Notes under the pieces: model-generated
Database searches by the model: none
Told to the model about the DNA's origin: nothing
The model's input: only the letters and a program-made list of their open reading frames with translations
NCBI RefSeq assembly: GCF_000376865.1
Contig: NZ_AQXQ01000011.1
Location: 248,001 to 312,000, forward strand
Origin: Thioalkalivibrio sp. ALJ7
GTDB taxonomy: Bacteria > Pseudomonadota > Gammaproteobacteria > Ectothiorhodospirales > Ectothiorhodospiraceae
Reading direction: 5' to 3'
Length of the DNA: 64,000 bases
Made by a program: the position numbers and the translations under genes
Shown here: positions 6,061-20,725 of the stretch, piece after piece
Layout: each line of letters starts with the position of its first letter
How positions within the stretch are numbered: the first letter of the stretch is position 1

Positions 6061-6272
6061 ACCACGAAGCGCACGAAGGCACGAAGAAGGGCAAGGGCGG
6101 TTGAACCACAGAGGGCACGGAGAAAGGCGACAAATTTTCAGCGGGCAGGATGCGATTCGCGGCGCTCATCAGCTCCTACCCGCTACAAGATCATCCCCGG
6201 TTTTCTCCGTGCCCTCCGTGGTGAAAACGCTTTTAACGTGGCCTTTCTTCGTGCCTTCATGCGCTTCGTGGT
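6061..6272. repeat. inverted-repeat element, copy C
   Basis: Third, shorter copy. The left arm starts ACCACGAAGCGCACGAAGG at 6061; the right arm ends GCGCTTCGTGGT at 6272. The inner CACAGAGGGCACGGAG / CTCCGTGCCCTCCGTGG pair and GCAGGATGCG are kept. The right arm overlaps the 3' end of the neighbouring GGDEF/EAL gene and supplies its last codons and stop. Confidence 0.85.
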
Positions 6273-8446
6273 GAATCAAGGAGGTCTACCCCGGCATGCG
6301 GGGGGCGTTCGTGCCACTGGCGTTCGAGGTCGGAGGCGGGCATGGGGCGGCCGAGCAGGAAGCCCTGGACCTCGTCGCAGCCCATTTCGCGCAGGAAGTC
6401 GTGCTGCTGAGCCGTCTCTACGCCCTCGGCCAGTACGCGCAACTTCAGGGTTTGGGCGAGCCCGATGATGGCGCGGGTGATGGCCTCGTCGTCGGGATCG
6501 TTGCCAATGCCCCAGGTGAATTCGCGGTCGATCTTGAGCGTGGTTAGTGGCAGCCGTCGGAGGTAGCGCAGTGACGACTGGCCGGTGCCGAAGTCGTCGA
6601 TGGCAATGGATACTCCAAGCTGTACCAGGCGCCGGAGCATCGCCGCGGTCGCATCGATGTCCTCGACCAGCACACTCTCGGTGATCTCGACCTCCAGTCG
6701 CGAGGGCTCGACCCCTGCCGCCCCCAGCGTTTCCAGGATGCGTTCCGGCAGGTTCGGATCGGCGAACTGCCGTGCGGAGAGATTGACTGCCAGGCGCAGT
6801 GGCGGCAGGCCATGGCGATCCCAATCCGCCAACTGGCGTGTGGCGGTACGCAGCACCCAATCCCCGATCGGCACGATCAAGCCGGTCGCCTCGGCCAGTG
6901 GAATGAAATCGCCCGGGGAGATCATGCCGTGCTGCGGGTGCCGCCAGCGGACCAGTGCCTCCACGCCCACGCGTCCACCATCCTGGAGGGCCAACTGGGG
7001 TTGATAGTGAAGTTCGAACTGGCCTTCGCGCAGGGCTGTGCGCAGGCCTTGCTCCAGTTCCATTTGCGCTCGTGCCTGGGCGTTCAGCTCCTCGGTGAAG
7101 AACCGGAATGTGTTCCCGCCAGCATTCTTGGCCTCGTGCAGGGCGCTGGTCGCGTGGCGCAGCAGGTCGTCCTTGCCCCGGGCATCCTGGGGAAACAGGC
7201 TTACGCCCACGCTGCTGGTCGCGACATGTTGTCCATGGCCTATGGCGAAGGGTTCGGAGCAGTGCTGTTGCAGTTCGCGCACGCGTTCGCGCGCCTGGTC
7301 GAGGTCGTCCACCCCGGTGAGGACGACGGCGAATTCATCGGCGGCCAGGCGTGCCAGGGTGTCGCGTGGTTGCAGGCGGTTTTGCAGACGATCGGCGAAG
7401 GCGCGCAGCAGGGTGTCGCCCGCGTCGTGTCCCAGCGTGCTGTTGATCGAGGTAAAGCGGTCGATGTCCAGTAACAGGACCGCGAGCGACTCGTCCTGGC
7501 GATCCGCCTCGTCCAGCGTGGCCCGCAGCCGGGTTCGCAGGCCCGTGCGGTTGGGCAGGCCGGTCAGGGCGTCGAAATTCACCAGCTGGAACAGGGCGTG
7601 CTCGGTGCGCTGGCGTTCGGTCAGGTCCTGGTGGATGCCGAGGATGCGGTTGGGCTGGTCGTCGGATCGTTCGCCCTCCGCGAGCATGTAGCGCTCCGCT
7701 CCATCCGGCAGGATCAGCCGGTGGCGGATCGAGAAACGGTTCGTCTCGCCATTGGTCAGGCGCAGCAGTGCAAAGGAGAGCGCCGCCCGATCATCCGCGT
7801 GAGTGTTTTCCAGCAGGTCCTCTCGGGTCAGGGTTTGCGGCCGGTCGCCCCGGCCGAACAGTGCGCTGGCCTCGGCCGACAACTGGATCTGGTCGGTTGC
7901 AGTGTCCAGGTCCCAATGGCCGATGCGCGCGACTCGCTGCGCGGTCAGCAGCCGCTGGTGGCTGTCCTGCAGGGCTTGTTCGGCCCGCATGCGTTCCTGC
8001 ACCTGATGGGTCAAAAGATCGATGGCCTCGCGCAGGTGTTCCTCGGGTTCCGGTGCGGCATGCGGACGGTCCGCGCGCTGTTCGCGCAGCACTGCAAAAC
8101 GCCAGGAGGCCTGTGCCTGTCGGCATAGGCCGATGTCGAGCAGTGCGGTCCGTGAAGTGCCGTCGTCGCGCTGGACGGTCACCGGATCGCGCCGGGGTAC
8201 CCAGGCCTCGGCTCGGGTAGCGGTCTTCAGGCGTTCTTGCAGGTCGAGCGCGGGGTCGACCGGCGACATCAGGGTGCCCAGGTCGCGTTCGTCCAGGCTG
8301 CATGTGGTCGCCCCGAACAACCGCTCGGCGGCCGGGTTGGCGTACCACACCCGCCCCTGAGCGTCGAGAAACAGGATCGCCTCGCTCAGGGCGTTGACCA
8401 GATCGATCGGGGCGGGGCTTTTCCCGGACTCCAGCGTATAGGTCAT
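6257..8446 (-). CDS. PAS-GGDEF-EAL protein, probable cyclic-di-GMP phosphodiesterase
   Basis: Likely turns over the second messenger c-di-GMP. The 729-residue order is PAS (about 10-115), a linker helix, a second PAS (about 160-285), GGDEF (about 295-455) and EAL (about 465-710). The GGDEF signature is degenerate (AADEF), so cyclase activity is doubtful. The EAL domain keeps EALVRW and the later DDFGTG motif, so phosphodiesterase activity is plausible. The ATG at 8446 overlaps the upstream stop as ATGA, implying translational coupling to the HsbR-like gene. The final codons and stop lie in a repeat arm. Confidence 0.9.
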   Translation of the reverse strand: MTYTLESGKSPAPIDLVNALSEAILFLDAQGRVWYANPAAERLFGATTCSLDERDLGTLMSPVDPALDLQERLKTATRAEAWVPRRDPVTVQRDDGTSRTALLDIGLCRQAQASWRFAVLREQRADRPHAAPEPEEHLREAIDLLTHQVQERMRAEQALQDSHQRLLTAQRVARIGHWDLDTATDQIQLSAEASALFGRGDRPQTLTREDLLENTHADDRAALSFALLRLTNGETNRFSIRHRLILPDGAERYMLAEGERSDDQPNRILGIHQDLTERQRTEHALFQLVNFDALTGLPNRTGLRTRLRATLDEADRQDESLAVLLLDIDRFTSINSTLGHDAGDTLLRAFADRLQNRLQPRDTLARLAADEFAVVLTGVDDLDQARERVRELQQHCSEPFAIGHGQHVATSSVGVSLFPQDARGKDDLLRHATSALHEAKNAGGNTFRFFTEELNAQARAQMELEQGLRTALREGQFELHYQPQLALQDGGRVGVEALVRWRHPQHGMISPGDFIPLAEATGLIVPIGDWVLRTATRQLADWDRHGLPPLRLAVNLSARQFADPNLPERILETLGAAGVEPSRLEVEITESVLVEDIDATAAMLRRLVQLGVSIAIDDFGTGQSSLRYLRRLPLTTLKIDREFTWGIGNDPDDEAITRAIIGLAQTLKLRVLAEGVETAQQHDFLREMGCDEVQGFLLGRPMPASDLERQWHERPPHAGVDLLDSPRSA

Positions 8447-10221
8447 ACGGAGATATCCCCCTTGTGCTCGGGCATGTCCCGCCAACGGTAGTCGGCTTCG
8501 ACCAGATTGCCGCTGCCGAGGTGGCGGACGTTTTGGCACAGGCGGGACACCAGTTTCAGCCCGCGCCCCCAGAGCCGGTTCTCGCCGCCACCTTCAATCG
8601 CTTCCTGCACCTGTTCGTAGTCGAATCCAGGGCCACTGTCGCGCACGCGGATGCGGATGCAGTGCTGGCCCTCCATGGGGCGGTGGCGCAGGGAAATGCC
8701 GATGCGTCCGCGGATGTCTCGCAGGGCCTCGTTGCGCTCGTGGTAGTACTGTTCGAAGCCCTCGACCGTCCCTTTCATGCCCGAGTCCAGGCGCAGGACG
8801 CCATGTTCGAAGGCGTTGTTGTACAGCTCGGCGATTACCGTTTGCAGTGCCTCGGCATGGCCGCCCCCCAAATCCGGGAACCATGCCTGCAGTTGATCGC
8901 GGGCGGCTTTAACCAGGTCGGTGGTGGCCAGTTGCCGGTCACTGACCTCCAGGGACCAGCGCCGTGTCCCGCGGACAGCGCTCACCTGTGGAGGGTTGCT
9001 TTCGGAGACCACGCCGGGACTGCAGTCGATGGTCACCAGCGTCATATCGTCGCCCGGTATCTGGTCGTCACGGTGCTGATCGAGTGCTTGCCGAATACGA
9101 TCGTAGGCACTGGCGGCGGAGTCGCAGGCCTGACAGTGCTGGTGGATCGCGTCTTCGCCAAAGGCCGTGGCGTCGCGGTTGGTGGCTTCGAGCACCCCGT
9201 CACTGACGAGCGCCAGCCAGTCGCCGGGGTTGAGTTCGAACGGGCGGGGAGCGGTATCCAGGTCCAGTTGCTTCAGGATGCCCAGAGGCATCGCCTGAGA
9301 TTGGATTCGCCTTGCGCGGCTTTCGCGCGTATTGCATAGCCAGCCGTCGGGCATGCCGCCATTCCACAGGCGCACACTGCCACCGTCCGGGGCGAATGTG
9401 GCCAGGACCGCACCCATAAACATTGAAGGAGGCAGGAAGTCGTGCAACACGTGGTTGAGCGTGTGCAGTAGCTCCTGGTCATCCACGCCCTCGGCGGTCA
9501 ACGAATGGAAGGTCTCGCTGACCGGGTAGGTGCCGATCGCGGCACTCAGGCCATGCCCGGTGAAGTCACCAACCAGCACGCGCATGCCGCCATCGGGGGT
9601 GAAGCCGGACAGCACCACATCGCCGCTGAAGGTGCTGGCCGCACAATGGTAGACGTTCAGGCGTTCCAGGCCCTGGTTGCGGCGGGTGATCGCGCGGGAG
9701 AAAAGCCCTTCGGCGGTTTCCTCCTCCCAGGCCTGGCGGGCCTGGGCGCGCAGCAGTTTCTCGTTGCGCTCGCGCAGCCCGGTGTGGAGATCGCGCAGAC
9801 GTTCCATCGCATGGATCTTGGCCTTCAGGATGGCCAGGTTCAGTGGCTTGCTGAGAAAGTCATCACCCCCGGATTCGATCCCGCGCAACAGCGAGTTCTC
9901 GTCGTCCATTGCGGTGAGGAAGATGATCGGTACGAACTGTTCGCCACTCTCAGCCTTGATAAGGCGGGTTGCCTGGTAGCCGTCGAGCTCCGGCATCATC
10001 ACGTCCATCAGGACCAGGTCGGGCAGGGCCTCGCGGCAGGCGTCAACAGCCTGTTGTCCAGTATTGGCCTCGCGAGTCCGGTAGCCGGAACCGGCCAGCA
10101 TCATGCGCAGCAGCCGGCGATTGTGCGGATCGTCGTCGACGATCAGTACCGAACCTTCCCCAGAAATCAGGTCTTCCGAGGATGCGGAACGCGACGAATT
10201 TGAAGGCTCGGGGATATCCAT
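8443..10221 (-). CDS. response regulator / PP2C-type phosphatase / anti-sigma-type kinase, HsbR-like
   Basis: 592 residues. REC domain at about 22-140 with acidic pocket D29-D31 and phospho-acceptor D73. A SpoIIE/RsbU-like PP2C phosphatase at about 180-400 (GDVVLSGF, GDFTGHGLSAA and GDDMTLV motifs). A C-terminal GHKL kinase domain at about 440-590 with ELYNNAFEHGV as N box and RVRDSGPGFD as G1 box. This matches HsbR of P. aeruginosa, which phosphorylates or dephosphorylates the STAS protein HsbA to switch flagellar gene control and diguanylate cyclase activity. The STAS partner ends 3 bp upstream and a GGDEF/EAL gene is coupled downstream. Function is inferred from architecture and order. Confidence 0.9.
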   Translation of the reverse strand: MDIPEPSNSSRSASSEDLISGEGSVLIVDDDPHNRRLLRMMLAGSGYRTREANTGQQAVDACREALPDLVLMDVMMPELDGYQATRLIKAESGEQFVPIIFLTAMDDENSLLRGIESGGDDFLSKPLNLAILKAKIHAMERLRDLHTGLRERNEKLLRAQARQAWEEETAEGLFSRAITRRNQGLERLNVYHCAASTFSGDVVLSGFTPDGGMRVLVGDFTGHGLSAAIGTYPVSETFHSLTAEGVDDQELLHTLNHVLHDFLPPSMFMGAVLATFAPDGGSVRLWNGGMPDGWLCNTRESRARRIQSQAMPLGILKQLDLDTAPRPFELNPGDWLALVSDGVLEATNRDATAFGEDAIHQHCQACDSAASAYDRIRQALDQHRDDQIPGDDMTLVTIDCSPGVVSESNPPQVSAVRGTRRWSLEVSDRQLATTDLVKAARDQLQAWFPDLGGGHAEALQTVIAELYNNAFEHGVLRLDSGMKGTVEGFEQYYHERNEALRDIRGRIGISLRHRPMEGQHCIRIRVRDSGPGFDYEQVQEAIEGGGENRLWGRGLKLVSRLCQNVRHLGSGNLVEADYRWRDMPEHKGDISV

Positions 10222-10224
10222 GAA

Positions 10225-10530
10225 CTAGGCGATACGGAACAGGCGCCCGAAGTTCGCGATGTCCAGCACCTTGCGCACGCCTTCCGAGGCACCGGCAATG
10301 GTGATGTCGGAAAACTCCCCCCCGGCATGTTCGCGCAACAGCAGCAGCATGCCCAGCGCGGAGCTGTCCATGTACTCGGTCTGCGAGAGATCAACGACAT
10401 AGCGTACGCCGGTCCCCGCGGTTTCGCGGTAGGCGGCACGGAAGGCCTGGTGTTGCTCGAAATCGAAGCGTCCCCGGACGCGGATGCGGACTTCCTTTTG
10501 ATCGTCGGACACGTGCTGTTCGATGCTCAT
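10225..10530 (-). CDS. STAS anti-sigma factor antagonist, HsbA-like
   Basis: 101-residue single STAS domain. The phosphorylation loop reads MDSSALG, with Ser56 in the position phosphorylated in SpoIIAA and HsbA proteins, so it can be controlled by kinase/phosphatase. It immediately precedes the HsbR-like gene (3-bp gap), the predicted partner. The receptor-like gene ends about 120 bp upstream; that gap shows no clear terminator. Confidence 0.92.
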   Translation of the reverse strand: MSIEQHVSDDQKEVRIRVRGRFDFEQHQAFRAAYRETAGTGVRYVVDLSQTEYMDSSALGMLLLLREHAGGEFSDITIAGASEGVRKVLDIANFGRLFRIA

Positions 10531-10652: not shown

Positions 10653-11849
10653 TTAAAACAATTCCACGTCGCCGGCGCCCATGTCCTGCTGATCGACGGC
10701 CCGGTGGTAGGACTCCTGGCGGCGTGCGCGCCAGTCACGTACGCGCTCGGCCATGGCCCGGGCATCCTCGGTGGAGTGCGCCTCGTGCAGGATGGCCTGC
10801 AGCTCTTGCAGGTGATTCAGGGCCTCCTCCGCGGTGCCCAGGGACTGGCGTGCAATGTCCTCGAACTGGAGGGAGCGTACTGCGGTGGAGACTGCCTGGT
10901 TCATGCGCTCGCTCAGTTCGGCCTCCTCGCGGAGGCGCTGGTCCAGATCGTCGCTGGCGCGCTGCGCATAGGCAAATAGCTGGGTAATCCGTTCTTTCTC
11001 ACTCATGCTGTCGTTCATGTCGCGCGAGGCCATGTCGTGCACCGTGCCATGGACCTTGCGGATGGAATCGCGAGCCCGGTCGATTTGCTTGCGGATGTCG
11101 TCGTGGAAGGTGGCCGAGCGCTGGGATAGCGAACGGACCTCTTCGGCTACGACCGAGAAGCCGCGCCCGGCCTCGCCCGCGCGGGCCGCCTCGATACTCG
11201 CGTTCAGGGCCAGCAGGTTGGTCTGTCCGGCGATCTCGCCCGCACTGTCCAGTAGTTTGAAGACCCCGTCCATGTGTTCACTCATGTCTTCCATGTGGTG
11301 CGCGCTCTCGACACTCTGACGGGAGATCTGAACCAGGGTGTCGATGAACATCTGCAGGGTCTGATCGGACTTCTGGGTGAGTTCGGTAATCACCTGCGTC
11401 TGAGTCCAGCCACCGCCGCCCTCGTCGCCGATGTTGTCGGACATCAAATGCATCTGGCGTTCGGTGATCTCGTGCATCTCGTTGAAGCTGGTGCCCAGCT
11501 GCTGCACCGCCTCCGCGATCAGGCCGCGCTGGCGGCCGATCTCGGCCTCCAGTTGCTCCAGCTCGAAATTCATTGCCTGTTCCAGCTCGTCCGAGAGTTC
11601 GGCTCCGCCGCTTGTTGCGGTGGACCGGAGCGATTGCTGCTCGCTCGCGGCCTGTTCTTCCTGAAGGCGCCGGTAGAGCCCCACGCCGAGGAGGCCCGCC
11701 AGCACGGTGAGCGCCAGCGGAGCCAGTACCAAAAGAGGCGGTGAGCGCAGGGCAAAGGCAACCGTGGCTAGAAGCAACAGGGCGATCAGTACGATCACGA
11801 GCCCGATCTGGGTGCGAATGTCAGCCAGTCTGGACAGCGGATTTTCCAT
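10653..11849 (-). CDS. membrane-anchored methyl-accepting chemotaxis-like protein
   Basis: 398 residues. Two adjacent hydrophobic segments (about 15-32 and 36-57) with almost no periplasmic loop, then a cytoplasmic helical signalling domain. The hairpin tip reads [19 protein letters not shown] near residue 215. With no sensory domain outside the membrane it probably senses internally or acts as a scaffold. The extreme C-terminus is GDVELF, identical to the last six residues of CheD in the same operon and unlike the EWEEF tail of the soluble receptor. It starts 12 bp after cheB. Confidence 0.88.
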
Positions 11850-11861
11850 AACGATTGGCTC

Positions 11862-12932
11862 CTATTCGCCGGTGGTGGCTTGGGTGCGGTGATCGCGGAT
11901 AAGGGCCGCGGCGATACCGGACAAGGGCAACACCTGCACCGCCGCGTCGCGCTTGACGGCCTCGCCCGGCATACCCCAGACAAGGCTGGTGGCCTCGTCC
12001 TGGGCAATGGTGTGGGCGCCCGCCTCGCGCAGGGCGAGCAGACCCTCCGCACCGTCGTCGCCCATGCCGGTCAGCAGGGCGGCGACCACGTTGGCCCCTG
12101 CCTGTTCTGCCGCGGAGCGGAACAGTACGTCCACGCTCGGTCGGTGACGATTGACCGCAGCGGTGGTGTCCAGGCGGCAGACGTAGCGGGCGCCATCCCG
12201 CGCCAGACGCAGGTGGTAGTCGGTCCCGGGCGCCACATAGGCGTGCCCCGGCATTACGATATCGCCATCCTCGGCCTCCTTCACCGAGAGCGCGGTGTTG
12301 CGGTCCATGCGTTCGGCGAAGGCCTGACTGAAGCCGGCCGGGATGTGCTGGGTGATCAGGATGCCGGGCGCATCCGGGGGTAATGCCACCAGGACCTCGC
12401 GCAGGGCCTCGGTGCCGCCGGTGGAGGCGCCGAGCACGATCACGCGGTCGGTGGTCTTCAGGCGACTGCCTGCGCTGGCCAGGCGCCGGGGTGCCGCCGG
12501 CGTGGCGCTACGGGCCTGCAGACGGATACGGGCTGCCGAGCGGATCTTTTCGATCAGTACGTCGCTGTATTCCTGCAGGGCGTGCGAGACGTCCACCTTC
12601 GGTTTGGTGACAAAGTCCACCGCCCCGACCTCCAGCGCCTCCAGGGTGACTTCGGCGCCCGCCTCGGTCAGGGAGGAAACCATGACCACCGGCATCGGGC
12701 GCAGCCGCATCAGATTGCGCAGGAAGGTGATGCCGTCCATCTTTGGCATCTCGACATCCAGGGTCAGCACATCCGGATCCAGCTGCTTGATCTTCTCGCG
12801 CGCATCGAACGGGTCGATGGCGGCCCCGACCACTTCGATGCCGGGATCCGCGGACAGGATCTCGGTCAGCAGTTTCCGGATCAGGGCGGAGTCATCCACC
12901 ACCAGGACCCGCACGGGCGATCGGTTGGTCAT
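11862..12932 (-). CDS. cheB: chemotaxis protein-glutamate methylesterase/glutaminase CheB
   Basis: Removes methyl groups from receptor glutamates and deamidates glutamines. 356 residues: N-terminal REC domain with D13, D14 and phospho-acceptor D59, then the CheB methylesterase domain. The catalytic serine is in GASTGG (about 169-174), the histidine in QHIPAGF and the aspartate in GMGDDG. The ATG at 12932 directly abuts the cheD stop (zero gap). It belongs to the cheR-cheD-cheB set that adapts the neighbouring receptors. Confidence 0.97.
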
Positions 12933-13556
12933 CTAGAACAGCTCCACGTCGCCGGCCACCGGATCATTCTCCAGACGGCGACGGTAGTCCTGCTCGCGTT
13001 CGAGCAGGGTGTTGTTATGTAGCGATACAAGCTTCTTCACCCGCGCCCGTCCCGAGGCGGGAAAGAACACCACCTTGCGGGGCCAGGGGCCACCTACGTC
13101 TTCGGCGACCAGGGTTAGTCCCTCGTCGCGCAGGAACTGCCGCATGAAGGCGATGTTGCGCGCGCCGACGTCGCTCATGCCGGCCATGACCCGGCCACCG
13201 CCGAACACCTTGATATGCAGATCGTCGCGCGGCGCACCGAGCTTGAGCAGTTCGTTGATCAGAAACTCCATCGCATAGGTTCCGTAGCGCGTAGCGCTGG
13301 AGGTAACCGGTCCCCAACCGCGATCGCGGTCGCCATCGGGCAGCATGAAGTGGTTCATACCCCCGATACCCGTACTCGGTGACCAGACGCAGGCCGATAC
13401 GCAGGAGCCCAGTACGGTGGTGATCAGCTCGGTCGGGGCGACGGATACGTAGGCCTCTCCCGGCAACAATTTGGCCGCCGGGGCTGCGTGCAGGCGATCC
13501 CAGTAGCGGTTGATATGTGCGAAGGCATGATCGTGCAGCGCCGGCAGGGCAGACAT
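12933..13556 (-). CDS. cheD: chemoreceptor glutamine deamidase CheD
   Basis: Deamidates receptor glutamines and can regulate or scaffold arrays. 207 residues; conserved GSCVSACVW (catalytic Cys), GGMNHFMLP (catalytic His) and the FGGG loop are seen. The ATG at 13556 overlaps the cheR stop as TGATG. The C-terminus extends past the CheD core through a helical RRRLEN tail to end GDVELF, a hexapeptide shared with the receptor-like protein at 10653. Confidence 0.95.
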   Translation of the reverse strand: MSALPALHDHAFAHINRYWDRLHAAPAAKLLPGEAYVSVAPTELITTVLGSCVSACVWSPSTGIGGMNHFMLPDGDRDRGWGPVTSSATRYGTYAMEFLINELLKLGAPRDDLHIKVFGGGRVMAGMSDVGARNIAFMRQFLRDEGLTLVAEDVGGPWPRKVVFFPASGRARVKKLVSLHNNTLLEREQDYRRRLENDPVAGDVELF

Positions 13557-14377
13557 CAGGCGGCCCTCCGGTACACGGTCTGTTCCAGCAAGCGGAATTC
13601 CTCTGTCACGCGAAACAGCGACTCGGAATGCCCGATGACGAGGTAACCCTCCGGACGCAGGACCTTCGCAAACCGCTCCACCAACTGCTTCTGGGTCGGC
13701 TTGTCGAAATAGATCAGCGTGTTGCGGCAGAAGATCACGTCCAGCGGCCCCTTGATCGGCCATGGGTCGAACAGGTTCAGCTGGCGGAAGTGGACCATCG
13801 AGCGCAGTTCGTCACGGATCTTGACCTTGCCCTCGTTGGCGCCCTTCCCGCGCAGCAACCAGCGCTGTTGGCGTCCACTCGGGATGCCGGTGACCCGGTT
13901 GGCGTCATACACACCGGCATCGGCATGGGCCACAACGCGCGAGTCAATATCGGTGGCCAGGATGCGCACGTCATCCGGTGACGGCAGGGCCTCGGCCAGG
14001 GTCATCGCAATCGAGTAGGGCTCCTCGCCCGTGGAGCAGCCGGCGGACCAGACCTTGAGGGGGCCCGTGCGTGGCAGTCGCCCCAGTTCGTCCAGCACAG
14101 GACCGGCCAGCATCTCGAAGTGATGGGCCTCGCGGAAGAAGGCGGTGAGGTTGGTGGTCAGCGCGTTGATGAACTCCTCGGCCTCACCCTCGTCGCCGTC
14201 CTCCACTCGATCCAGGTAATGCTCGAAGGAGTCCATGCCGAGCACCCGAAGCCGACGCGAGAGCCGGCTGAAGACCAGCTCGTGCTTGCTCGCGTTCAGC
14301 ATGATCCCGGTGCGCTCCTGGGTCAGTTGTGCAACACGCCGGAAATCGCGTTCGGTCAGGCGCTCGGAGGCGGCCAT
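13556..14377 (-). CDS. cheR: chemotaxis protein methyltransferase CheR
   Basis: Methylates receptor glutamates using S-adenosylmethionine. 273 residues, the family length. N-terminal helical domain (about 1-75), then the SAM-binding Rossmann domain with WSAGCSTGEEPYSIA near residue 110 and DVIFCRNTLIYF near residue 215. It lies 18 bp after the soluble receptor, whose C-terminal EWEEF resembles the CheR-docking pentapeptide. It overlaps cheD by one base. Confidence 0.97.
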   Translation of the reverse strand: MAASERLTERDFRRVAQLTQERTGIMLNASKHELVFSRLSRRLRVLGMDSFEHYLDRVEDGDEGEAEEFINALTTNLTAFFREAHHFEMLAGPVLDELGRLPRTGPLKVWSAGCSTGEEPYSIAMTLAEALPSPDDVRILATDIDSRVVAHADAGVYDANRVTGIPSGRQQRWLLRGKGANEGKVKIRDELRSMVHFRQLNLFDPWPIKGPLDVIFCRNTLIYFDKPTQKQLVERFAKVLRPEGYLVIGHSESLFRVTEEFRLLEQTVYRRAA

Positions 14378-14395: not shown

Positions 14396-16633
14396 TCAGA
14401 ACTCCTCCCATTCTTCGCTGGACTCCTGGCGCGAAGGCGCCGGGGCTGGGCGGGCGGGCGCATTGCCGCCGGCCGAAGCCGGGCGTTTCAGGGCGCCTGG
14501 GCCTTTGGATTGTTGTGATGCACTGCCACTGGCCTTCGGCTTCTGCATCACCTGGCGGGCGGCGGTCGCCTGCTCGCTCTTGAAGAAGCTCATCATGTCC
14601 AGCAGCTCGCGGGATTGGTCGTCCAGCGATTCGCTGGCGGCCGCAGCCTCTTCGACCAGGGCCGCATTCTGCTGGGTAACCTCGTCGAGCTGAGTCACGG
14701 CCTTGTTGATCTCGTCGAGCCCGGTGGACTGCTCTTCGCTGGCCGCGGCGATCTCGGCGATGATGTCGCTGACCTTCTTCACCGAGTCGACAATCTCTTC
14801 CAGCGCCTTGCCGGAGTTGTCGACCAGCTTTGAGCCTTCGCCGATGCGTTCCACCGAGTCGTTGATCAGGGTCTTGATCTCCTTGGCGGCCTGGGCGCTG
14901 CGCTGGGCCAGGTTGCGGACCTCGGTGGCGACCACGGCAAAGCCGCGGCCCTGTTCCCCGGCTCGTGCAGCCTCGACGGCAGCATTGAGTGCCAGCAGAT
15001 TGGTCTGGAAGGCGATCTCGTCGATGACACCGATGATGTCGGCGATCTTTTTCGACGACTGGTTGATGTCGCCCATCGCGGTCACGGCCTTGTCGACCAC
15101 CTCGCCCCCTTCCTGGGCCTTGTCGCGCGCGGCGCTGGCGAGCTGATTGGCCTGGCGGGCGTTGTCCGCGTTGGACTTGACCGTGGAGGTCATCTCTTCC
15201 ATTGACGAGGCGGTCTCCTCCAGCGAGGAGGCCTGTTCCTCGGTGCGCTGGGACAGGTCGGTATTGCCCTGAGCGATCTCGGCCGAGGCCGAGCGAACGT
15301 TGCCGGCGCCCTCGAGGATCTGCCCGACCAGCTGGTCGAGGTTGTCCAGCGAGGTATGGATGGCGTCGCGGAACTCGCCGAACTCGCCGCGGAATTCGCC
15401 TTCCATGCGGACGCTCAGATCCCCTTCCGCCATGGCCTGCATGACGCGGGATCCCTCCCGAACGGGGGGCACGACAGCATCTAGCAGTTCGTTGACGCTT
15501 TCCGCGACGCTTTGGGTGAACCCGCTGTAGCGCTCGGCCTCGAGACGTTCACCCAGCTTGCCGCTTGCGGCGTCGCGGATCAGTGCGTCGATCTCGGCCT
15601 CTGCGGTTCGCATCTCGGTGACATCCCGCCACTCCAGCATGTTGCCGGCGTAATTGCCTTCGTCGTCGATGATCGCGGTCGCGTTAATCCAGAAGCGCAG
15701 GTCGCCCAGGCTGATTTCGGTTTCGTACGGCAGCCTGGACGGGTCCTTCAGGATGGAATGCTGATGCGACGGGACCGAGTGAAACTGGTCAATCGACTGG
15801 CCCACCATGTTGTATGGGTCGAAGCCTGGAAACGCCTTGGTGAAGGCCTCGCGGTGTTTCTGGAACATCGCGGTCAGGGCGGCGTTGGAGAATGTGATGG
15901 TCATGTTCTCGTCACACATCATGAGCGAGGAAGAGGCGCCGTTGATCGCGGCCGCAAAGCGTGCGCGCTCGCGGTCCGCCTCGTTCCATTCCGTCACGTC
16001 TTGCCACTCGACCATGCTGCCGATGATCCTGCCGTCGTCATCGGTGATCCCGGACGCCTGCAGCTTGAATTCGAGTCCACCGACCTCGATCTCGGCGGTG
16101 TAGGGCATGCGTGCCGGGTTCGACAGGATGGCGCGCTGATGCGACGGATCCTTGTGGAACTGGTCGATCGACTGTCCCACGAGGTTGTCCGGATCGAAGC
16201 TCGGGAAGTGCTGCTGCAGAATGTGGCGGCGTTTGCGCAGCAGGCTGACGACCGCCTCGTTGGCGTAGATGATGTTCATGTCGTCGTCGCACATCATCAC
16301 CGCCATTTGCGAACCCTCGCAGGCGGCACGCATGAAGCGGCCGTCCATCATCTCGTTCGGGTCGATTTCTGCGGCGTCGGTTTGCGGATTGGCGGCCATG
16401 GGGGTGTCCTCGCTTGGCTTGTTCGTATGGCGCGCGGCCGAGGTGCGGCGGCGGGCGGGTTTGTTGGTTTTCGGCGTCTCGGTTTTCGGGCCGGACCGGG
16501 GTTCGGGGGCGGCTTCGTCCGAAGCCGGGCGCTCGCTCGAGGCCTCGTCGGAGCCCGATTCGCGGGCCGTGCCGGATGGGTTCATCCAGCCCAGCGGGTC
16601 GTTGCCCAGCTTGTTGCGTTTGCGTGTGGTCAT
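14396..16633 (-). CDS. soluble PAS-PAS methyl-accepting chemotaxis protein
   Basis: 745 residues with no membrane segment, so a cytoplasmic receptor. An N-terminal basic, low-complexity tail (about 1-100, starting [17 protein letters not shown]) is followed by two similar PAS domains (about 100-210 and 220-335), a HAMP-like linker near 385-430 and a signalling domain whose tip reads [21 protein letters not shown]. The C-terminus ends EWEEF, a CheR-binding-type pentapeptide as in McpB/Aer2 of the Che2 system. The ATG at 16633 has GGGAGAAC upstream; an internal ATG at 16399 would remove the basic tail. The adjacent ParA suggests partitioning, as for Rhodobacter TlpT. Confidence 0.92.
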
Positions 16634-16659
16634 GGCCCGTGTTCTCCCTGGCTCGCGGC

Positions 16660-17439
16660 TCAGGCGTGTGCCGCCGTCGGGCGGGTGTTGGTTTGTGCGC
16701 CGGCCGCGACCAGGTCGGCGGCCAGTTGCTGGAAGTCCGCGGCCGCACGGTGGCGCGGCTGGTACTCGAAAATCGTCTGCCCGAAGCTCGGGCTTTCGGC
16801 TAGCACGACCGTCTCCCGGATCGCGGTGGGCAATAGCTGGTCCGCAAAGTGTTTTTCGATTCGTTCGCGCACTTCGCGGGCATGCCGGCGCTGCTCCACA
16901 AAACGCGACAGCACGATCCACTTCTTGCGGTACTGCCCCAGGCGTTGTTCGATCCCCTGCAGGATGCGCATCAGTCGCGAGAGCCCGTTCAGGGACAGGA
17001 AGTCCCCGGCCACCGGGATCAGTACTTCGTCTGCGGCGATGATCGCGTTCATCCCCAGCAGTCCGGCCGAGGGCGGGCAATCGATCAGCACGAAGTCGAA
17101 CTTGTGGCGCAGCGGCTCCAGGGCGCGCTGCAGCCGCCAGCCGCGTTCGGCACCACCGGTTTCGAGGTTCTCCACTTCTTGCAGGTGCTGGCCGGCGGCG
17201 ACGATCTGCAGCCCATTCCCGGCCTCGCTGAAGGCGTCTTCCAGACGTGCGTCGCCATGCATCACCCGGTCGAGCCCGGCCGGGTCTTCCAGGCCGAATG
17301 CCATGCTCAGGTGGCCCTGCGGATCGGCATCGATCGCCAGCACGCGCTGCCCGGCGAGGGCTAGGGCGTGTGACAGGTTCAGGGTCACAGTAGTCTTGCC
17401 GACCCCGCCCTTCTGGTTGATCACCGCAATCGTCCGCAT
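16660..17439 (-). CDS. ParA-family ATPase in chemotaxis operon (PpfA/ParC-like)
   Basis: 259 residues. Deviant Walker A motif KGGVGKT at 10-16, Walker A' in DADPQG near residue 38 and Walker B in [11 protein letters not shown] near residue 118, all intact. It sits between cheW and a soluble chemoreceptor, not beside a parB, so it is probably not a chromosome or plasmid partition protein. In Rhodobacter (PpfA) and Vibrio (ParC) such ATPases position chemoreceptor clusters. The gap to the receptor gene is 26 bp. The role is inferred from context. Confidence 0.9.
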
Positions 17440-17460: not shown

Positions 17461-17982
17461 TTACGCCGTGGCACCCGCCTCGATGGCATCGGCGGAGGCG
17501 ATCAGCCCCGGCCCCAGCAGGGTGTCGATGTCCAGCACCAGGATCATCTGTTCTTCCACGGTGGCGAGGCCTCGCACGAAGTCGATCCCGATCCGTGTGC
17601 CGAAATCGGGGGCAGGCTGCAGGTCGCCATCCGGGATGCTGTACACCTCGGAGACGGCGTCCACGACCATGCCCATCACGCGTTCACGGTCGTCGTTGAT
17701 CACTCGCAGCATGATCACCACGGTGGTTGGTCCGTATTCCATCGGCTCCATGCCGAAGCGCCGCCGCATGTCGATGATCGGCACGATCATGCCGCGTACG
17801 TTGATCACGCCCCGGATGTAGTCCGGGGTGTTGGGCAGAGGAGTGGGGCGTTCCCAGCCCTTGATCTCCTGCACCCGCAGGATGTCCACGCCGTATTCCT
17901 CCTCGGCCAGGATGAAGGTCAGGTACTGGTCCTCGCCGGCGGCGGCCGGGTCCTGGATGCTTTGTGTTGCGTCGTTTGCCAT
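17461..17982 (-). CDS. cheW: chemotaxis coupling protein CheW
   Basis: Scaffold linking CheA to receptors. 173 residues with one CheW-like SH3-type domain pair ([43 protein letters not shown]). The ATG at 17982 is chosen because AAGGAG stands 9 bases upstream; the longer open frame upstream has no ribosome site. It starts 16 bp after cheA ends and is followed by parA. Confidence 0.96.
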
Positions 17983-17998: not shown

Positions 17999-20059
17999 TC
18001 AGGCCGCGCGGGTATCGCGACCGGCGGCCATTCGCGCGATCCCGGCGACATCCAGGATCAGGGCCACCTGGCCGTCTCCGAGGATGGTCGCGCCGGCGGT
18101 GCCGGGGACCTTGCGGAAATTGGTTTCCAGCGTCTTGATCACCACCTGCTGCTGACCGAGCAGGTCATCCACTCGCAGGGCCACGCGCTGGTCGTCTGCC
18201 TCGGCCACCACCAGCAGAGCGCGCTCCGGCAGCGGGCTGGGCTCGGCCCGGCCGAACAGCGCGGCCAGGTCGACGATGGGGATGTATTCGTCCCGCAGCC
18301 GGTACAGCGGTAGTTTGCCGAAGGCCTGCTTGACGCTTTCCGGGAGGGTCTGCAGCGACTCGACGATCGCGATCAGCGGGATCACGAAGGTCTCGTCGCC
18401 GATCTTCAGCAGCTGGCCGTCCATGATCGACAGCGTCAGCGGCAGGCGAATGGTCAGGCGCGAACCCTTGCCGGGCTCGGATTCCAGTTCGATGTTCCCG
18501 CCAAGGCCGCGGATATTCTTCTTCACCACGTCCATGCCGACGCCGCGGCCGGACAGATCGCTGACCTGGTCCGCGGTGGACAGCCCCGGTTCGAAAATCA
18601 GTTGCAGGATCTCGTGGCGGTCCAGTGGTTGATTGGCGCCGACGATCCCGGCGTCACGGGCCTTGGCCAGGATGCGGTCGGCATCCATGCCCTTGCCGTC
18701 GTCGCGGATCTCGATGACTACGTTGCCGCCGCGGTGGTAGGCCTCCAGGCTGACCTGGCCGGTCTCCGGCTTACCCGCCGCCGCGCGCTCGTCGGGCATC
18801 TCGATGCCGTGATCCACTGCGTTGCGCACCAGGTGCACCAGCGGATCGCCCAGGTGCTCCATCACCGTCTTGTCGATCTCGGTGTATTCGCCCTTCAGGG
18901 TCAGTTCGATCTGCTTGCCGAGCTGCCCCGAGATGTCATGCACCAGGCGGGGGAAGCGGTTGAAGATCTGTGCGATGGGCACCATACGGATGCCCATGAC
19001 GCTCTCCTGCAGCTCGCGCGTGTTGCGTTCCAGGTCGGCCAGGCCGTTGCGCAGGCGCTCGATTTGCGCCGCCACCTGCGACGGGTCCTCCTCGAGCTGC
19101 TCGCTGATGTCCGTCAACATGGACTGGGTGATCACCAGCTCGCCCACCATGTCGATCAGGGCGTCGATCTTGCCGGTATTCACCCGCATGGAGCTGGATT
19201 CCGCGTTGCGGTTGCCGCCTCCGCTCGCCTTTTGTGCAGGCTCTGGTCTGGTGTCGTCCGTGGCGGCGGGGCCCTCGGGCTCCGGTTCGGGTGATTGGCG
19301 CGGTGTGTCGGCGCCTGCCTCGAGAGGTTCGATGATCAGATCGCATTCGTCCTCGACCCATTCGAAGACTTCCTCGATCTGGTCACGGCTCGCGTCGCCC
19401 TCCAGTTCGAGGGTCCAGGCCAGGTAGCAGTCCTCCGGATCGAAGGCCTCCGCGCTGACCGGCAGCCGGTCGGTTTCGCAGTGAATGGCCAGCCGACCCA
19501 GTTCTTCCAGTACCTCGAACATGCGGAGCGGGTCGTTCCCGGTGCGCATCAGGTCGGCGTGGGGAGTGAAACGGATCCGCCAGCCGTTCGGGCCGGAGCC
19601 ACCGCCCGACTCGTCGCCATCAGAGCCGCCACCATTGCCGGCCCCGCCACCGCTCATGGAGCCGTCCGCGGGCGGGACATCCCCCAGATGGGCCTCGATC
19701 AGGGTGCGCACCTCGGCCACTTCGGCGGCATCGGCCTCGCCGCCGTCGCGGGCGGCATGCAGCTGGGCGCGCAGGGTGTCCACCGCGCGCAGCAGCAGGT
19801 TCACGGTCTCCGGCGCGGCCTCCTGTTCGCCGTTGCGCATCCGGTCCAGAAGCGTCTCGACGCCGTGGGTGAACTCGGAGATCGCACCGAACCCGAAGGT
19901 CCCAGCCCCACCCTTGATCGAATGGGCGCAGCGGAAGATCGTGTTCAGCGTCTCCGGATCGCCGCCGTCGAGCGCCAGGAGTTCGGTCTCCATGCGCTCC
20001 AGCCCCTCGAAACTCTCTTCGAGAAAGGCATCGACGAACTGGGCCATGTCGATCGACAT
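17999..20059 (-). CDS. cheA: chemotaxis histidine kinase CheA
   Basis: 686-residue core kinase. N-terminal HPt domain with phospho-acceptor His46 in CAHSIKGGAGTFGF. A Gly-rich linker (about 133-158) is followed by a region that may be the CheY-binding domain (about 160-250). Then come the dimerisation domain, the GHKL ATPase (NAVDHGIE, DDGKGMD, GRGVGMDVVKKN) and a C-terminal CheW-like domain (about 550-680). Two bases separate it from cheY. One complete CheA serves the whole locus. Confidence 0.97.
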   Translation of the reverse strand: MSIDMAQFVDAFLEESFEGLERMETELLALDGGDPETLNTIFRCAHSIKGGAGTFGFGAISEFTHGVETLLDRMRNGEQEAAPETVNLLLRAVDTLRAQLHAARDGGEADAAEVAEVRTLIEAHLGDVPPADGSMSGGGAGNGGGSDGDESGGGSGPNGWRIRFTPHADLMRTGNDPLRMFEVLEELGRLAIHCETDRLPVSAEAFDPEDCYLAWTLELEGDASRDQIEEVFEWVEDECDLIIEPLEAGADTPRQSPEPEPEGPAATDDTRPEPAQKASGGGNRNAESSSMRVNTGKIDALIDMVGELVITQSMLTDISEQLEEDPSQVAAQIERLRNGLADLERNTRELQESVMGIRMVPIAQIFNRFPRLVHDISGQLGKQIELTLKGEYTEIDKTVMEHLGDPLVHLVRNAVDHGIEMPDERAAAGKPETGQVSLEAYHRGGNVVIEIRDDGKGMDADRILAKARDAGIVGANQPLDRHEILQLIFEPGLSTADQVSDLSGRGVGMDVVKKNIRGLGGNIELESEPGKGSRLTIRLPLTLSIMDGQLLKIGDETFVIPLIAIVESLQTLPESVKQAFGKLPLYRLRDEYIPIVDLAALFGRAEPSPLPERALLVVAEADDQRVALRVDDLLGQQQVVIKTLETNFRKVPGTAGATILGDGQVALILDVAGIARMAAGRDTRAA

Positions 20060-20061
20060 GA

Positions 20062-20424
20062 CTAGCGCAGCACCCGGTTCACGGTGTTCATTAGCTGGTC
20101 GGGGTCGAACGGCTTGACTAGCCAGCCGGTGGCGCCGGCTGCCTTGCCTTCCTGCTTCTTCTCCGGCCCGGCCTCGGTGGTCAGCACCAGGATGGGGGTG
20201 AACTTGTAGTCCCCCAACTTGCGCAGCTCACGGGTCAGCTGCAGCCCGTCCATGCCCGGCATGTTTACGTCGGTGATCACCAGGTCCGCCTTCGTCCCCT
20301 GGGCCTTGCTCAGCCCGTCGTTGCCGTCGCGCCCCTCGGTGACCTCGTGTCCGGCCTGCTTGAGGGTGAATGCGACCATCTGGCGCATCGAGGCGGAATC
20401 GTCCACCACCAGAACCTTAGCCAT
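20062..20424 (-). CDS. cheY: CheY-type single-domain response regulator
   Basis: 120-residue REC domain with acidic pocket D8/D9, phospho-acceptor D52, switch Thr in LVLTTEA and Lys in LVKPFD. The ATG at 20424 follows CAGGAGAAAACA. It overlaps the upstream STAS gene by 8 bases, so the two are probably translationally coupled. It is the likely acceptor of CheA phosphate; whether it acts on the flagellar motor is unknown. Confidence 0.95.
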   Translation of the reverse strand: MAKVLVVDDSASMRQMVAFTLKQAGHEVTEGRDGNDGLSKAQGTKADLVITDVNMPGMDGLQLTRELRKLGDYKFTPILVLTTEAGPEKKQEGKAAGATGWLVKPFDPDQLMNTVNRVLR

Positions 20425-20725
20425 TGTTTTCTCCTGAATCGGTATCGTGTTCCTGCCCCGTACTGGCAACGGTCCCGTCCACGCCGAGCGCCTGGAAGGC
20501 TTGTGCGAAGACAGCGCTTGCGCCGTCGATTGAAAAGACTTGCGCATGGCATTTCGCGGTATGGCGCGCCATCAGCAGCACCTGTACACCGGCGGCGTCG
20601 ATATCGGCCACGCCCGCCGCGTCCACCTGAAGGCCCTCGCCGGCATCCAGCGCCACGCGCAGCTCCTGCCAGCAGGCCGTCGCGGTGTCGATGCGCAGGC
20701 GTTCGGGCAGCGCTATGGTGGTCAT
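20417..20725 (-). CDS. STAS-domain protein of the chemotaxis operon
   Basis: 102 residues, the first gene of the leftward che operon. The STAS loop reads DIDAAGVQ, so the usual phosphorylatable Ser is replaced by Ala; this differs from the HsbA-like STAS downstream, which keeps DSSALG. It may therefore be an unregulated adaptor. The ATG at 20725 has GGAAAGG upstream. Small STAS proteins preceding cheY occur in several F7-type clusters. Confidence 0.87.
   Translation of the reverse strand: MTTIALPERLRIDTATACWQELRVALDAGEGLQVDAAGVADIDAAGVQVLLMARHTAKCHAQVFSIDGASAVFAQAFQALGVDGTVASTGQEHDTDSGENNG

Follow-up and report, generated by a model that had tools for sequence, protein, structure and literature searches.

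A conserved N-terminal tail accompanies a PpfA-like ParA clade and probably serves as its docking peptide in chemosensory systems

Many bacteria possess several ParA/MinD ATPases, each of which has to find the cargo meant for it. Pairs of a ParA and a soluble receptor are reportedly encoded in the che operons of 77 out of 206 species, a count ascribed to a survey by Hamer from 2010. In the closest described system, that of R. sphaeroides, the orphan ParA PpfA is encoded beside the soluble receptor TlpT within a che operon (PMC3964821), and the N-terminus of TlpT is named as the presumed ParA activator in the accessible part of a further source, which also describes short N-terminal activating peptides in ParB, PomX and MinE (PMC7993993). 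Charged N-terminal activator peptides, that of TlpT included, are a known theme according to extracts of two papers (PMC7993993, PMC10241942). Cytoplasmic arrays themselves are described in V. cholerae as receptors placed between two CheA/CheW baseplates (PMC3964821, in part).

The locus described here lies in the window, i.e., the whole 64-kb stretch of DNA analysed, within a genome of 2.71 Mb. On the minus strand, the gene order is STAS - cheY - cheA - cheW - parA - receptor - cheR - cheD - cheB (Table 1). It contains the order cheY-cheA-cheW-receptor-cheR-cheD-cheB of an F7/Che2-type operon as this class is usually defined. A complete ParA between cheW and a soluble PAS-PAS receptor had been proposed for positions 14396-17439 by an earlier sequence-only reading, and this was borne out, as the positions fit receptor plus ParA, the 259-aa ORF is intact, the receptor features no membrane segment and cheW lies upstream. 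The gene parA occurs without parB in the che operon and adjoins a soluble receptor, so that the proposed pairing and its analogy to PpfA/TlpT are supported as well.

Table 1. Features of the chemosensory operon in the window
Feature	Position	Strand	Remarks
ParA-type ATPase, PpfA-like clade	16660..17439	-	259 aa
Soluble chemoreceptor	14396..16633	-	745 aa: tail, disordered linker, PAS region, HAMP-like, MCP signalling domain, C-terminal EWEEF
Receptor N-terminal tail, residues 1-17	16583..16633	-	proposed ParA-docking and activating peptide
Receptor variable linker, ~residues 18-96	16346..16582	-	
Receptor MCP signalling domain, residues 497-653	14675..15145	-	Pfam
CheW	17461..17982	-	173 aa; start set from relatives; longer ORF begins 18051
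CheA	17999..20059	-	686 aa
CheY	20062..20424	-	120 aa; start set from relatives
CheS-like STAS protein at operon head	20417..20725	-	without tail; start set from relatives
CheR	13556..14377	-	
CheD	12933..13556	-	start set from relatives
CheB	11862..12932	-	

Three genes follow on the 3' side of cheB; they encode a short membrane-bound MCP-like protein, a second STAS protein and a response-regulator/SpoIIE/HATPase protein. Short MCP-like proteins after cheB are also found in several related loci, and the one in the window (10653-11849) shares a C-terminal GDVELF with CheD (12933-13556). The STAS and response-regulator/SpoIIE/HATPase pair (8443-10530) is likely a partner-switching module and occurs in loci L009-L011, too. 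Besides, a PAS-GGDEF-EAL protein (6257-8539) adjoins the operon, with its longest ORF overlapping the end of the SpoIIE gene.

The intact ParA carries the deviant Walker A sequence KGGVGKT with the signature lysine, is matched by AAA_31 and CbiA in Pfam and matches the solved ParA/Soj structures PDB 8ray and 1wcv in profile comparison. By these features, the protein is assigned to the ParA branch of the ParA/MinD ATPases. An RRH stretch in the region of the DNA-binding arginine of Soj is kept in all 11 rows of the ParA alignment. A tblastn search of plasmids with this ParA matched 1235 records, every one below 60% identity. The same genome features a second chemosensory locus (L145, G000:C8:10000-26000) with CheY, CheA, CheB, a CheW-domain protein and two further ParA-type ATPases, which appear ParC-like and FlhG-like by reading of their sequences. 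One small genome thus harbours two chemosensory systems, each with separate ParA-type ATPases.

The receptor gene begins 26 nt past the parA stop, and both genes are intact. Pfam finds PAS matches, HAMP_2 and MCPsignal; the second PAS domain was assigned by reading of the repeat, with the best Pfam stretches falling in the first. The top 19-residue Kyte-Doolittle mean of 1.26 speaks for the lack of a membrane segment, the comparison value of the membrane-bound short MCP-like protein downstream being 3.04. A resemblance to Aer2 (780.9 bits, under the cut-off of 1200) hints at possible oxygen sensing by the receptor. Its C-terminus is EWEEF (14399-14413), similar to the CheR-tethering pentapeptide of other receptors. 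The closest named relatives are Thioalkalivibrio records with 67-73% identity in the best segment. A scan of genome contigs with the receptor gave seven loci, with the tail being present in four Thioalkalivibrio records; L013-L015 encode different receptors, and no parA accompanies them in the stretch that was retrieved.

At the N-terminus of 10 distinct receptors of the genus, RKRNKLGxDPLGW is invariant, and the mean majority fraction amounts to 0.94 for residues 1-17, 0.53 for residues 18-75 and 0.78 for residues 96-225. Unlike the tail, the linker is not invariant in the genus; in the window receptor, its residues 18-95 are rich in Ala, Pro, Ser and Glu. The same motif was found next to parA in other families, too. 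As the tail is invariant in the genus while the linker varies, and recurs beside parA in other families, it represents more than a chance similarity. Across the parA loci, its conserved core can be written as [LMI]GxDPL[AS]W[ML]. It is quite likely that this tail docks onto ParA and activates its ATPase in a PpfA-like system which partitions a cytoplasmic chemosensory array.

The distribution of the pair was followed with a profile built from 11 ParA proteins, which was searched in 370 genomes of the class. Matches at E <= 1e-55 occurred in 45 genomes, 40 of which reach E 8.3e-70 or better, with the next best at 9.1e-59. The surroundings were fetched for 38 of the 40, as the window's own and that of G023 were already at hand (L001 and L017), and G254 was dropped because its contig ends inside parA, resulting in 39 assessable loci. 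Their commonest order is cheY-A-W-parA-receptor-R-D-B. The tail or a variant of it is encoded just downstream of parA in 36 of the 39, although these genomes are related and the locus counts hence not independent; two of the loci (L071 and L093) were missed by the motif script and counted from reading. Conservation of LGNDPLGWM next to parA in other genomes, which the sequence-only reading had put forward as a check, is thereby confirmed. Exact DPLxW is found in 32 loci. The four variants comprise G340 and G138 with Ala for the usual Trp, the latter also truncated and with no STAS found, G266 with DDPFDWI and G384 with NPLAWL. Three loci (G249, G359 and G129) feature parA without a nearby tail; a relaxed pattern gave no match in the whole genome of G359 and only internal chance matches in those of G249 and G129. 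In L093 (G070), three in-frame stops interrupt cheA, and parA and the tail-STAS gene are still open. In a sample of 397 genomes of the phylum, no more than three ParA proteins apart from that of the window have E < 1e-60; they come from family f202, and each is followed by a tail-STAS protein. A PpfA like that of R. sphaeroides was not recognised in 24 chosen phylum genomes, 20 of them from family f218; two extra ParA regions inspected in this search (G671 and G405, with six other second matches left out) showed no che neighbours.

The occurrence of the tail was further compared with that of parA and of the receptor. A strict DNA pattern, GxDPL[AS]W[MLV], matches 27 of the 370 class genomes, while the reversed pattern used as a control matches none, and a chance motif was rejected on this basis. 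In 25 of the 27, the match adjoins a parA of the clade; the remaining two (G229 and G379) were discarded as chance matches, as they are not N-terminal in a credible gene. The pattern is conservative, since it misses the window tail itself, which has Gly before Trp. In the phylum sample, it was found in one of 382 genomes, within a 31-aa frame, with five control matches; the three f202 tails escape it because they end in WI. The list of close F7-type CheA proteins, which extends to E 2.7e-155, covers 86 class genomes, 30 of which also carry a ParA of the clade. Accordingly, parA is no oddity here, although it had been regarded as an insertion into an otherwise Che2/F7-like operon. Among these F7-type genomes, the strict pattern occurs in 21 of the 30 with the clade ParA versus one of the 56 without it, the chance match in G379 (Fisher p 5e-12, uncorrected for relatedness). 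From the 56 genomes without clade parA, 20 loci were fetched and 16 had a readable receptor; the tail is absent from all 16. Several of these tail-less receptors start with the same globin-like stretch, as judged by eye. Taken together, the tail is seen to track parA and not the receptor in the genomes compared, since it is found beside parA on either of two carriers and is absent from receptors without parA. The proposal that the N-terminal tail is the partner of ParA gains support from this co-occurrence.

The same data bear on a different idea, in which the basic tail would itself anchor the receptor on nucleoid DNA, as in Myxococcus FrzCD, with ParA acting separately. The window tail is indeed basic, with a net charge of +4 before the motif, and the positively charged N-terminal tail of FrzCD is reported to bind DNA (PMC5716589, in part). 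The available text of the same source describes FrzCD N-termini which keep their charge and vary in sequence, whereas here the sequence is kept and the net charge before the motif ranges from -3 to +7 across the loci. Moreover, three of the 16 receptors without parA (L149, L150 and L160) begin with basic stretches and still lack the motif. Tethering to DNA is thus very unlikely; since it is the motif and not the charge that is kept, charge-based binding to the nucleoid was discarded as the main reading. The sequence-only reading had described the tail as a basic peptide; its conserved element is GxDPL[AS]W and not the basic character.

Another explanation would be that the tail is a targeting or array-assembly signal independent of ParA, recognised, e.g., by CheA, CheW or a protein of the pole, and that its link to parA reflects a shared operon history. 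Most tail loci do sit in a chemosensory gene set, and cluster assembly in H. neapolitanus is stated to need its chemotaxis ParA homologue in the accessible part of PMC10241942. This explanation is nevertheless improbable, as F7-type CheA genomes without the clade ParA feature the pattern only once, by chance, and tail and parA remain together outside che loci in three genomes: in L085, L086 and L087, parA is followed by a tail-STAS gene with no che locus in the fetched stretch. As regards genomes, G068, G204 and G384 encode parA and the tail-STAS protein apart from F7-like che genes, which sit elsewhere in the genome, so that an array is a less certain cargo there.

The tail is carried by two kinds of proteins. 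In 21 of the 36 loci it forms the receptor N-terminus and in 15 it is part of a separate protein, 14 of which have a CheS-like STAS domain. Pfam was applied to 10 separate tail proteins and reported STAS_2 above the cut-off in nine, with L085 below it; in the remaining tail proteins of the 14, STAS was detected with a custom HMM whose input included some of these proteins. Homology to the operon-head STAS was found for the STAS part of the tail proteins (E 4e-28 to 6e-13 for six), to which the second, anti-sigma-antagonist-like STAS proteins showed no match. Among the fetched loci that carry the tail on the receptor, 17 of 20 encode a tail-less STAS of the operon-head family, the other three being cut by contig ends. 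Where a STAS protein itself bears the tail (14 loci), the stretch examined showed no second STAS of this family. In L091 and L092, a globin and STAS come after the tail (the globin was identified with Pfam in L091 and visually in L092), and this protein is possibly an oxygen-responsive adaptor. The sequence-only reading had expected the tail in orthologues with the same ParA: it is in fact missing from some receptors, is then mostly encoded on a separate protein beside parA, and is lacking altogether in three of the 39 loci.

A quick ParA tree, calculated without L071, L093 and L088, separates the clade from six Soj-type rows with an SH-aLRT of 100. Parsimony on this tree, in which 22 of 52 inner branches are weak, needs three carrier changes, and the well-supported branches appear compatible with a single origin of the receptor-fused form. 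G248 with the tail on the receptor and G137 with the tail on the STAS protein share a genus code. The S. meliloti STAS protein CheS is described to bind CheA in the part of PMC12654446 at hand; by analogy, a STAS protein with the tail could link ParA and the array via CheA.

The ParA itself differs from its chromosomal relatives at the place where a peptide would be expected to dock. In M. xanthus, the ParB motif (L11, L15, L18 and I19 hydrophobic, R13 central) binds a pocket at the edge of the ParA dimer, single changes of V116, L150, L152, L155, L187 and L192 to Ser markedly cut the interaction with ParB, and R13 is proposed to meet Y81, aided by E82, D110 and E117 (PMC12462528, in extracts). 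Chain 8ray_B has exactly these residues at these numbers together with a D60A change, and is taken as M. xanthus ParA because of this agreement. The equivalent of L150 is Leu in 28 of 28 Soj-type proteins and Ser (33) or Ala (17) in all 50 rows of the clade; that of Y81 is Tyr in 18 of the 28 Soj-type proteins and Asp or Glu in 48 of the 50 clade rows. Two alignments concur at positions 150 and 81; they disagree around positions 110-117, while both groups vary at position 187, so that the reading is confined to 150 and 81. In the genome of the window, Leu at 150 is found in the Soj, ParC-like and FlhG-like ATPases, and the other ParA-family relatives compared have Leu or Ile. The three parA loci without a tail likewise have Ser at this position. 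The loss of Tyr at 81 fits a tail without a central Arg/Lys and the smaller residue at 150 fits the Trp of the tail, as judged from a correlation among related sequences rather than from contact data. An AlphaFold2 model of ParA plus tail from a nine-row alignment had a mean pLDDT of 41.5 and was uninformative on docking.

These positions also concern the notion that ParA works via CheW or a ParP-like CheW, as in the polar ParC type, with the receptor tail being incidental. It draws on parA directly following cheW, whose product is an ordinary-looking protein of 173 aa, and on docking in H. neapolitanus, where CheW was used as the putative partner of ParC (PMC10241942, in part). On the other hand, the ParC-like ATPase of the same genome, labelled by reading as ParC and ParP are here throughout, lies elsewhere (L145) beside CheA, CheB and a CheW-domain protein and has kept the Leu at the pocket. 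Furthermore, in L070, L077, L078 and L089 the receptor gene stands between cheW and parA, and the tail is still found after parA. A mode of action via CheW is therefore scarcely credible.

In the favoured mechanism, with the tail as the docking peptide, ParA-ATP dimers would coat the nucleoid and arrayed soluble receptors would present many copies of the tail, each on a long disordered linker that may let it reach the nucleoid. The docking determinant [LMI]GxDPL[AS]W[ML] would represent a ParB-like yet separate code, and in some relatives a CheS-like STAS protein would carry the tail, perhaps holding the array through CheA. Probably, ParA thus uses the tail as a handle to distribute sensor clusters over the chromosome. 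A wider proposal, to which we assign even chances, regards the motif and the Ser/Ala pocket as a transferable ParA address tag, i.e., a docking code orthogonal to chromosomal ParA-ParB which is plugged onto a receptor or a CheS-like STAS protein, in some cases away from che genes, and perhaps onto other cargo.

While chemosensory pairs of ParA and soluble receptor are already known, the tail motif, its restriction to a ParA clade, its occurrence on either kind of carrier and the accompanying change in the pocket appear to be new; none of these four was found in the open-access literature, a scope outside of which most subscription papers and the main TlpT study lie. The short tag, the dedicated ParA clade and the pocket residue go together and give exact mutations for tests of specificity. 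Moreover, the tag allows a partner for PpfA-type partitioning to be recognised in many F7-type systems, and a role as cargo adaptors becomes possible for CheS-like STAS proteins.

Compared with known systems, the locus shares the soluble receptor and the basic N-terminus with Myxococcus FrzCD, which differs by keeping charge instead of a motif and by binding DNA directly (PMC5716589, in part); window-type tails keep the sequence and not the charge. With the polar ParC/ParP system it has a ParA-type ATPase in a chemosensory operon in common, but a separate ParC-like locus exists in the same genome (L145; labels by reading). Sinorhizobium CheS is likewise a STAS protein of a che cluster, and the STAS of the split adaptors groups with the operon-head STAS; CheS differs by its single STAS domain according to the accessible text of PMC12654446, and the likeness is one of domain. 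PpfA/TlpT is similar in the orphan parA and the soluble receptor within a che operon, a likeness of gene arrangement, and in the receptor N-terminus as the presumed ParA activator. It differs in that the clade ParA (E < 1e-60) occurs outside the window's class only in f202 within the 397-genome phylum sample, and in that a tail on a STAS protein was not found described for PpfA/TlpT in the open-access literature, as far as its texts are accessible. Chromosomal ParB resembles the tail in the position of its motif at the extreme N-terminus, in disorder, in a similar hydrophobic spacing and in having a ParA as partner. In contrast to the ParB motif (L-G-R/K-G-L-x-x-L-L/I), window-type tails lack the central Arg/Lys and feature an Asp-Pro insertion and a Trp, and their partner ParA is without the equivalents of Leu150 and Tyr81. 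ParB-type peptides are described with Arg/Lys at i+2 and hydrophobic residues at i, i+4, i+7 and i+8 (PMC12462528, in extracts), whereas none of the 38 loci of the motif list (39 rows minus an internal chance match in L059, with L025 and three loci of f202 that lie beyond the class count among them) has Arg/Lys at i+2, and the second hydrophobic residue is at i+5. Judged by these residues, the tail is not a member of the ParB-type peptides, but it may work like one.
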